Positions 25,139 to 27,614 of a stretch of 64,000 bases of DNA are shown here, one piece after another; the stretch's first letter is position 1; each line of letters opens with the position of its first letter. The stretch is from positions 2,170,001 to 2,234,000 of the forward strand of contig CP036296.1 of NCBI GenBank assembly GCA_007751255.1. The letters run 5' to 3'. The notes under the pieces are model-generated. The model searched no databases. It was not told the DNA's origin and saw only the letters and a program-made list of their open reading frames with translations. This DNA comes from Engelhardtia mirabilis (GTDB lineage Bacteria > Planctomycetota > UBA1135 > GCA-002686595). Both the position numbers and the translations under genes were made by a program.

Positions 25139-26248
25139 ATGAAGCGCCTTCGCAGGTTCCCCCGAGGTCCCTGGACCGGGGTCGACGGCTGCCGGGCGGG
25201 CTGGGTCCGGGCCCGGCTGAGCCCCGCGGGTCGGATCGAGATCGACCTCGTCAAGTCGGCTCGGGCCCTGATCGCGGACCCCGCCGATCCCCTGGTGATC
25301 GACATGCCGATCGGCCTCTTCCCCGGCGGCCGCGCGCGCGCCCGGGACTGCGACCGCGCGGCGCGCGAACGCCTGGGCCCGCGCCGCTCGAGCGTCTTCA
25401 ACCCGCCGACCCGCGCGATGCTCCGCGCGCGCGAGCACGGCGAGGTGGGGCGCCTGGGCCTCTCGATCCAGGCCTTCCACCTGATCCCCAAGATCGCCGA
25501 GCTGGATCGAGCTCTGAGCGCGGACGACGCGTCCCGAGTCCTCGAAGGCCATCCGGAGCTAGCCTTCGCGTGCCTGGCCGGCGCGCCGCTCGAAGCCCCC
25601 AAGCGCACCACGGCCGGCCGGCACGCGCGCGCGCGCCTGCTCGAGGCCGCGGTCGCCGGATCCCTCGACGCCTTCGCGGACTTCGCCGCCGCGACGCGGC
25701 GCAAGGACGTAGCCCTCGACGACATCCTCGATGCGATGGTCCTGGCGGTCGCGGCCCGCGACGTGGCCGCGGGCACGGCGTTGCGATTGCCCGAGGGCGA
25801 GCTGGACCGTGATCGACGCGGCCTGCCGATGCAGATCTTCGGCGCGTCGTCGGTCCCGACGCCGGTCGACGATCAGCGAACTCGGATCGACACCCTTCGC
25901 CCGTTCGGAATGGCGCGACGGCCGGCTGTGCGGGGCCAGACGGACGAGCGCAGAGCACGCGTCCTGGCCACGGTCGACGCGATCCCATCGGGGAAGGTGG
26001 CGACCTACGGTCTCGTTGCGACCGAAGCGGGGCTCCCGCGTCGTGCGCGCTTCGTCGGCGGTTGCCTGCGCGACTTGCCCCCGGGCACCTCGCTGCCCTG
26101 GTGGCGAGTGGTCAACGCCTCGGGTGGCATCAGCCCCCGCGGCGACGGCTCGAGCACCGGTGAACAGCGACGACGTCTCGAGCGCGAGGGGGTCCAGCTC
26201 ACCGGGGGTGGGCGCGTCGACCTCAGTCTCCACCTCTGGCGGCCCTGA
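25139..26248 (+). CDS. DUF429 (predicted nuclease) fused to alkyltransferase-like (ATL) domain
   Basis: 369 residues with two recognisable parts. Residues 1 to about 235 match DUF429: GVDGCRAGWVRARL, LVIDMPIGLFPGG, RSSVFNPPTRAML, FHLIPKIAELD, EGHPELAFACLAG and PKRTTAGRHARARLL. This family is predicted to be an RNase H-fold nuclease. Residues from about 270 match the ATL branch of O6-alkylguanine transferases: AIPSGKVATYGLVATEAGLP, GTSLPWWRVVNASGGIS and EQRRRLEREGVQL. The PWWRVV has Trp where the repair enzymes have the acceptor Cys, so this half would bind but not reverse O6-alkylguanine. The gene starts 105 bases from the divergent tetR. Confidence 0.82.
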   Translation: MKRLRRFPRGPWTGVDGCRAGWVRARLSPAGRIEIDLVKSARALIADPADPLVIDMPIGLFPGGRARARDCDRAARERLGPRRSSVFNPPTRAMLRAREHGEVGRLGLSIQAFHLIPKIAELDRALSADDASRVLEGHPELAFACLAGAPLEAPKRTTAGRHARARLLEAAVAGSLDAFADFAAATRRKDVALDDILDAMVLAVAARDVAAGTALRLPEGELDRDRRGLPMQIFGASSVPTPVDDQRTRIDTLRPFGMARRPAVRGQTDERRARVLATVDAIPSGKVATYGLVATEAGLPRRARFVGGCLRDLPPGTSLPWWRVVNASGGISPRGDGSSTGEQRRRLEREGVQLTGGGRVDLSLHLWRP

Positions 26249-26339
26249 GGCGGTGTCCTCGAGGAATCTCGCGCTGGGCTCCAGCGGCGTCACGCGCCGC
26301 GCCGAAGTGGCGTGCGGGACCAATCAAAGGGGGGCCCAC

Positions 26340-27614
26340 ATGTTTCAAAGAATTCCTGCCCCGTTGCCCGGGGACCAGGCGCCGCGCCCGATCTCCGAGG
26401 TGCGGCAAGTCGATCAGGCGGCTGGGGGGCCGCCGGATCGGCGGACGGCTGGTGAGCTGCCGAAGGCTCGGCGCGTCGACGAGATCGCCATCTCACGTGA
26501 GGCGGAAGACCGCCTCTTGCGCGAAGATCAGTCGCGCGCCGCCGCGACCCAGCGGGACGGTACGTCATCCCTGCGCGAACGCCCGCAGGGGACCGAGGCG
26601 CGCGAGCGCACCGAGGGTATTCAAGCGCGCGAGCGACCCGAGGGCGTTCAGACGCGCGAGGGACCCGAGGGGCCCGTGGAGCGTGAGCGCCCCGAGGGGC
26701 CAGCCGCGCGCGAGCGGGTGGATCGCCCAGAAGCCCGCGCTGAACAGGCGCGGGAGCGAGAGGTGAGTCGAAGCCGGCCCGATGACGGGGTTCGGACGTC
26801 CGCTTCGCGTGGCGAGGCGACAGATCGCTCCGACGCTGCGCCGCAGAGGGACGCCGAGGGCCCGAGGGCACCTCGGGAAGTCGCCACGGAACGCATCAAC
26901 GAGCGGATCCAGGCCGCGCGCGCGGACGAGGAGACCCGCACCGAATCGCGCCAGGACGTGGTCGCACAGCAGCGTGCCGTGGTGGAAGAGCGAGGGATCG
27001 GGGGCGATGCGCCCCGCGGTGTCGCGGCCGTCGACGAGGCGACTCGCATCGACAACCAGGCCGCCGACCGGGCGCGCCGGGGCGAGGCCGACACCTTCGA
27101 GGTCGAGCGCAACCGAGACAGCGTCGAGCTCGTCCGCGAGGACGTCGAGCGCGGCATCGAGCGGCAGGCGTCGACCGAGCGCCAGATCGAATCGGAGGCT
27201 CGCCTTCGGAGCGACGACGTAGCCGTGGACGAGCGGTCGAGGGAGGGCAGCGAGCGCGTGGCCGCCGAGCGTTCAGAACGCGAAGCGGCGACCCGCGACG
27301 GGATCCTGCGCAACCGCCTGGACGAGGCCAGGGCCGTGCGGCCGAGCGATTCGCGCTCGGTCGAGGCCACTGCGGTGCGCGGCGACGATCTGGACCGACT
27401 GCGGGAGTCCGCCGCGAGGCAGCGGGTCGCGGCCCAGGCCGAGTCGCGCCCGAACGGGGCGATGGGGGAGGAGCGTCAAGACCGCGAGGTCAAGCTGCCC
27501 TTCCCGGACGGCGGCCGTACCGACTTCGGGCCCGATGCGGCGACGCTGCTCGAAGAGCTCGACGGTCGACCGGATCCGCCCGAGTCGACGCTGCCCGAAG
27601 AGTTGTTCGGCTGA
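26340..27614 (+). CDS. highly charged low-complexity protein of unknown function
   Basis: 424 residues starting at ATG 26340, preceded by CAAAGGGGGGCC as ribosome site. The protein is almost entirely Arg/Glu/Asp/Ala with no hydrophobic core, hence probably disordered or coiled-coil. Residues about 75-145 are imperfect repeats around ARERPEGVQ and TREGPEGP. A short motif VDEIAISREAEDRLL near residue 45 resembles the start of FlgM-type anti-sigma helices, but this is weak. The C-terminal LPFPDGGRTDFGPDAATLL is better ordered. The long frame that starts further upstream overlaps the DUF429-ATL gene and is discarded. Confidence 0.55.
   Translation: MFQRIPAPLPGDQAPRPISEVRQVDQAAGGPPDRRTAGELPKARRVDEIAISREAEDRLLREDQSRAAATQRDGTSSLRERPQGTEARERTEGIQARERPEGVQTREGPEGPVERERPEGPAARERVDRPEARAEQAREREVSRSRPDDGVRTSASRGEATDRSDAAPQRDAEGPRAPREVATERINERIQAARADEETRTESRQDVVAQQRAVVEERGIGGDAPRGVAAVDEATRIDNQAADRARRGEADTFEVERNRDSVELVREDVERGIERQASTERQIESEARLRSDDVAVDERSREGSERVAAERSEREAATRDGILRNRLDEARAVRPSDSRSVEATAVRGDDLDRLRESAARQRVAAQAESRPNGAMGEERQDREVKLPFPDGGRTDFGPDAATLLEELDGRPDPPESTLPEELFG

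Follow-up and report, generated by a model that had tools for sequence, protein, structure and literature searches.

A single gene of Engelhardtia mirabilis joins a complete DUF429 domain to an alkyltransferase-like (ATL) domain, and we tentatively read its product, with a confidence that falls short of even, as a two-domain DNA-repair protein that acts as a lesion-directed nuclease. The gene lies in a window of 64,000 nucleotides (contig CP036296.1, positions 2,170,001 to 2,234,000 of the forward strand), and its features are collected in Table 1. The single ORF that a sequence-only reading of the window had reported is indeed seen there on the plus strand, running from an ATG to a stop codon, and the Pfam matches to both of its domains lie far above their cut-offs. 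PF04250 (DUF429) scores 154.4 bits against a cut-off of 23 and covers profile positions 1-210 of 214, with the match found at residues 14-219 of the first 235, and PF01035 (DNA_binding_1) scores 71.7 bits against a cut-off of 27 at residues 272-352, covering profile positions 3-81 of 81. These two are the only Pfam families above cut-off in the fused protein; the AGT N-terminal domain is absent, and a SAF match is sub-threshold (E 0.26 in a search at E up to 1).

Table 1. The fused gene and its parts, in window coordinates.
Feature	Coordinates	Strand	Basis
Fused gene, 369 aa, DUF429 + linker + ATL	25139..26248	+	Single ORF, Pfam matches to both domains
DUF429 domain, residues 14-235, predicted RNase H/RuvC-like fold	25178..25843	+	Pfam match 14-219; invariant D16, D55, E136, K155, D195, D198
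Linker, about residues 236-264	25844..25930	+	pLDDT below 50 at 241-244 and 251-264
In-frame ATG (M258), near the start point of free ATLs	25910..25912	+	Candidate start codons of free ATLs
ATL domain, residues 265-369; Y290, R304, W321, R323, R334	25931..26245	+	Pfam, PDB relatives, alignment, Foldseek

The conservation of the DUF429 domain was assessed on an alignment of 35 of the 42 DUF429 ORFs (alignment A1). All 19 columns that are invariant across these 35 other domains are retained in the fused protein, which was itself left uncounted, and so are all nine columns conserved in at least 90% of them. Together with the profile coverage, this agrees with the earlier description of a complete DUF429 domain with its family motifs intact. 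The invariant residues include the putative active-site acids D16, D55, D195, and D198, as well as E136 and K155. The DUF429 part alone is modeled by AlphaFold2 with a mean pLDDT of 95.1. In the model, D16 lies in the first strand (residues 12-18), D55 lies beside the strand 52-54, and D195 and D198 lie in the helix 193-211, a placement that appears to resemble the RuvC layout. The best PDB match of this part in Foldseek is RuvC, and it is weak (E 0.025, probability 0.85, TM 0.33/0.47); no PDB structure matches at E of 0.001 or below, and a profile search of PDB sequences with this part returns no match at E up to 10. A whole-genome scan for DUF429 gives one match, the fused gene.

In published work, DUF429 is assigned to clade D of the RNase H-like superfamily, where RuvC also belongs, and its putative active-site residues are described as conserved (PMC3985635). 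Most DUF429 proteins are said to consist of one domain, a few being fused to Nudix or RelA/SpoT (PMC3985635, PMC3153485). The DUF429 domain of M. smegmatis MSMEG_5849 (RelZ) is cited for RNase HII activity (PMC4429107), and RelZ is described as removing R-loops, with induction under UV stress and activities that depend on both of its domains (PMC7591505). Cleavage of the RNase HII type, with RNA-DNA hybrids or R-loops as substrates, is the sole biochemical activity of a DUF429 protein that we found in print; it is not the nicking of damaged duplex DNA (PMC4429107, PMC7591505).

The C-terminal part has the marks of an ATL. Its motif is PWWRVV, so that W321 occupies the position of the acceptor Cys, as the earlier reading had noted, and PWWR stands in place of the AGT-type acceptor motif PCHR. 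The nearest solved relatives of this part are the ATLs 2kif (E 1.3e-19) and 3gva (E 9.7e-17), with true AGTs far behind (best E 2.2e-4), and the NCBIfam AGT model TIGR00589 stays below its cut-off (24.9 versus 46.4), as expected of an ATL. On an alignment of 28 of the 72 ATL ORFs and two PDB stretches (alignment A2), the fused protein, again uncounted, retains all 13 columns invariant in the 30 other ATLs and all 11 columns conserved in at least 90% of them; Y290, R304, and W321 are invariant in the 30, and R323 is invariant as well. The residues Y25, R39, W56, and R69 of S. pombe Atl1, which we take to be its key residues, are all matched in the alignment, by Y290, R304, W321, and R334, respectively. 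The second Trp of PWWRVV is ordinary, because WWR is found in 15 of the 31 aligned ATLs (the fused one included), beside WHR in 14, WFR in one, and one that the pattern does not match. The ATL part also fits Atl1 (3gva; DNA complex 3gx4) with a TM of 0.82 and 2kif with a TM of 0.86 in Foldseek. A trimmed joint alignment (A4) holds 30 of the 42 DUF429 ORFs and 6 of the 72 ATL ORFs, its ATL rows being random draws that MAFFT placed correctly. There are three PF01035 matches in the genome, and the other two carry PCHR, one gene appearing Ogt-like and the other Ada-like, so no ATL other than the fused copy was found there. According to PMC10779285, ATLs are tight binders of O6-alkylguanine that also make contact with UvrA and UvrC.

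We also compared the fused ATL with free ones. Its identity is 47-63% to the free ATLs of its family and 39-55% to the other rows of the alignment. In a tree of 73 rows and 108 columns, which is too short to settle many forks, the fused ATL falls outside the clade of 35 outsiders and stands with the free ATLs of the family, although the forks around it are not settled, nor is the place of one outsider there (L052). The tree gives a hint, and just a hint, of vertical descent. Taken together, the identities and the tree position suggest that the ATL was probably inherited and then fused to DUF429 within the lineage.

The full-length AlphaFold2 model has a mean pLDDT of 90.4, a pTM of 0.71, and a pLDDT of at least 90 at 304 of the 369 residues. 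About residues 241-264 are disordered in it, while both flanking domains are confidently folded, and the protein is thus predicted to consist of two domains on a flexible tether of about 25 residues. Judged by GC per codon position, the linker looks like normal coding DNA (GC3 of 0.87 in codons 211-240, 0.77 in codons 241-270, and 0.80 in codons 271-300). Frame 2 is stop-free from codon 224 until codon 341, and frame 1 is stop-free from codon 191 to codon 480. Because these other frames stay open, a one-base slip in the linker could not conceal two normal genes; it would give a DUF429 tail running more than 70 residues into the ATL, unlike the DUF429 frames at 58 other loci, which stop 0-22 residues past the domain (133 residues in the fused protein; some pairs among the 58, for instance L006/L137 and L010/L125, are one and the same gene). 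A frame error near residue 240, which the sequence-only reading had named as a possible cause of the join, is therefore unlikely. More broadly, we consider it very improbable that two adjacent genes, DUF429 and then ATL, were merged by an artefact of assembly or base-calling. The fusion is known from one genome only, an in-frame ATG is present at M258, and six codons within 233-262 are one substitution away from a stop, which makes a single mis-read stop possible. However, the fusion sits on a 6.9 Mb contig, a single indel would not yield two normal genes with the other frames open, and DUF429 and ATL lie side by side as separate genes at no other locus examined. The join looks real from these sequence features, and the ATG at M258 is possibly a leftover or an internal start.

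We found no second case of the DUF429-ATL architecture among the best-scoring candidates per genome in 1,666 distinct genomes. Of the checks that the earlier reading had proposed, the domain search bore it out, with PF04250 and PF01035 both matched, while the search for the same architecture in other genomes returned none. The full-length protein was queried against 81 genomes of the family, 154 of the order, and a sample of 392 of the phylum, three sets that overlap, and against 10 genomes behind the loci, 385 of the class of L043, 400 of the phylum of L064, and 369 of the class of L058. At most 24 candidates per genome were scored in the family, at most 13 in the order, and at most 5 in the sets of 392, 385, 400, and 369, at E limits of 1e-3 to 1e-20, where a diverged fusion could appear as one domain or be missed. 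Only the host genome gave a stop-free match spanning both domains. Rows that cross the linker slightly include G145 (223-356) and G075 (228-369), both stop-free, and G070 (12-273) and G1150 (8-273), each with one stop. Three candidates for a second fusion were rejected: in G008 (128-369, two stops) and G080 (147-369, three stops) the profile finds no DUF429 in the genome or in the respective loci L026 and L031, and G1130 (196-363, no stop) shows an ordinary ATL preceded by an open frame. The two domains occur together in none of the best 80 of 274 relatives on genome contigs, and six pattern matches on viral contigs yielded no confirmed case.

At the level of loci, DUF429 is present in 62 of 141 and ATL in 79, and both in one frame are found only in four copies of the fused gene's own locus. 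Adjoining separate DUF429 and ATL genes occur at none of the 141 loci, whose flanks are mostly 1.5-3 kb, and the nearest free pair on one contig among the matches listed is about 35 kb apart (G070). Of the 81 genomes of the family, 18 carry DUF429 and 52 carry ATL, the latter counted by hand at a C-terminal match of E 2e-14 or better. ATL is present in 14 of the 18 genomes with DUF429 (host included) versus 38 of the 63 without it, a co-occurrence that is not significant (p 0.27 in a Fisher test, which ignores kinship). The fusion is thus lineage-restricted, to one species, within the genomes searched, and because it is a singleton, conservation gives no test of its function and no sign of selection for coupling.

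Upstream of the fused gene, and divergent from it on the minus strand, lies an efflux cluster with TetR, OEP, and HlyD matches; downstream lie an ORF without a Pfam match and then a gamma-glutamyltranspeptidase. None of the five neighbouring ORFs scanned is a repair gene, PADLOC matches no defence system, and nothing in the window reaches the Rfam gathering scores. A long, highly charged frame rich in Arg, Glu, and Asp (window 25731-27614, plus strand) covers the end of the fused gene in a different reading frame and continues downstream without a Pfam match. Elsewhere in the host genome, UvrA is present with two matches above cut-off, 1188 and 971 bits. Both are full matches in a single ORF of 1929 residues, where they stand head to tail as a tandem UvrA-UvrA (G000:C1:3520445-3526114, minus strand; L142:141-5930, minus strand). 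For RNase HII (PF01351), the genome yields a single match, which covers only profile positions 113-175 of 199 and scores 25.9 bits versus a cut-off of 25.8 (G000:C1:4419715-4419909). The product of the ORF at this place (L121) seems to be RNase HII-like but diverged, and the genome, which is 90.5% complete, may thus lack a canonical RNase HII.

Among 20 proteins encoded beside free DUF429 genes at 11 of the 42 loci, no pattern of repair functions emerges. A pyridine nucleotide-disulphide oxidoreductase gene (Pyr_redox) adjoins the free DUF429 gene at 4 of these 11 loci (L040, L049, L053, and L058), which belong to different bacterial groups. At one of the 11, a gene of the uracil-DNA-glycosylase superfamily is convergent with the free DUF429 gene (L054:3696-4445, minus strand). 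At one locus of the 11, L074 from Halobacterium, the DUF429 gene has a DUF1156/DNA-methylase-like gene on one side and a GmrSD-type restriction gene on the other, a defence-like setting.

A mechanism can be proposed from the fusion and the intact motifs, together with the predictions of two folded domains and of a flexible tether between them. The C-terminal ATL would find O6-alkylguanine in duplex DNA, flip and hold the base, and bend the DNA; the linker would hold the N-terminal DUF429 near the lesion; and DUF429, as a metal-dependent RNase H/RuvC-like domain acting through D16, D55, D195, and D198, would cut nucleic acid or help Uvr excision to finish. By analogy with relatives, the fused protein may bind lesions and may have nuclease activity, while we only infer that both domains would act at one site and which strand would be cut. 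A lesion-directed nuclease is plausible because of the RNase HII activity reported for RelZ, the binding of O6-alkylguanine by ATLs, and the published fusions of ATL and AGT to Endonuclease V (EndoV). The repair reading is favoured by two full-length domains with all invariant residues present, by the absence of any other ATL among the PF01035 matches of the genome, by its fit to Atl1 and 2kif beside the weak RuvC likeness of the DUF429 part, and, in the available text of the literature, by the ATL-EndoV precedent for joining an ATL to a nuclease (PMC10779285), the placement of DUF429 with RuvC (PMC3985635), and the RNase HII activity cited for it (PMC4429107). Against it, the fusion is a singleton and gives no sign of selection for coupling, no close pair of free genes and no significant co-occurrence is seen, repair genes form no pattern around the free DUF429 genes scanned, the resemblance to RuvC is weak, and the activity reported for DUF429, which acts on RNA-DNA hybrids, requires both RelZ domains. 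The sequence-only reading had proposed a self-contained enzyme. In its strongest form, in which the ATL would lock on the lesion and the tethered DUF429 would nick beside it, opening a repair route for bulky O6-alkylguanine with no need of UvrABC, this proposal seems to us rather improbable.

Two other readings, R-loop removal near lesions and an uncoupled fusion, account for the observations almost as well as the lesion-directed nuclease does. It is possible, if on balance doubtful, that two neighbouring genes became one when the stop codon of DUF429 was recently lost, each domain keeping its old job and the ATL perhaps also being made alone from M258. The singleton architecture, the disordered linker, the in-frame ATG near the start of free ATLs, and the non-significant co-occurrence are consistent with such an event, whereas the linker codes normally, the conserved residues are complete in both domains, and the intermediate with neighbouring genes is absent from the 141 loci. 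Alternatively, DUF429 would be an RNase H that attacks R-loops or RNA-DNA hybrids, and the ATL would bring it to alkylated DNA with a stalled RNA polymerase, opening the site for transcription-coupled excision repair. The RNase HII activity, R-loop removal, and UV stress induction reported for RelZ in the available text (PMC4429107, PMC7591505) argue for this role, as does the partial RNase HII match barely above its cut-off, yet we regard it as unlikely: hybrid cleavage by RelZ depends on both of its domains (PMC7591505), so the activity may not carry over to DUF429-ATL, our literature search found no direct link of ATLs to hybrids, and the diverged RNase HII-like protein of L121 may do the job instead.

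As a natural fusion, DUF429-ATL is one protein that bears both on incision at ATL-bound lesions and on roles of DUF429 outside RelZ. If lesion-stimulated cutting is true, DUF429 gains a repair role and ATL-nuclease fusions gain a second nuclease family; if there is none, a chance fusion is documented and 'Rosetta stone' inferences deserve less weight. The earlier suggestion that the fusion is undescribed holds in part. We found no publication naming both 'alkyltransferase-like' and 'DUF429' in a search that left most subscription journals outside, but the idea of an ATL-nuclease fusion is already in print for archaeal EndoV (PMC10779285).

The available text of that paper reports archaeal ATL-EndoV and AGT-EndoV fusions, such as AGTendoV of Ferroplasma acidarmanus (PMC10779285), in which, as here, an alkylguanine-recognising HTH domain is covalently bound to a nuclease or nuclease-like domain. 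In contrast to ATL-EndoV, the partner here is DUF429, which belongs to another Pfam family, is N-terminal, and has a predicted nuclease activity; no Endonuclease V domain is found in the fused protein by Pfam at E up to 1. With the free ATLs of S. pombe (Atl1), V. parahaemolyticus (2kif), and E. coli, the fused ATL shares the fold, the Trp in place of Cys, the Tyr, and the Arg-finger, but those proteins are single-domain and mark lesions for excision repair, as described in the available text (PMC10779285). RelZ (MS_RHII-RSD) of M. smegmatis likewise has DUF429 fused to a second domain and a reported nuclease activity, but its partner is a ppGpp (alarmone) synthetase and its substrate an RNA-DNA hybrid or R-loop. 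The free DUF429 proteins (COG2410/COG4328/COG4923) share all invariant residues with the fused domain, whose own model is of high confidence with weak RuvC similarity; they differ in being mostly single-domain, and the fusions named in the available text are to Nudix, RelA/SpoT, and phosphomethylpyrimidine kinase, ATL being unnamed there (PMC3985635, PMC3153485). As far as this literature goes, an ATL joined to a nuclease is already known from EndoV, and DUF429 as the partner of the ATL is new.
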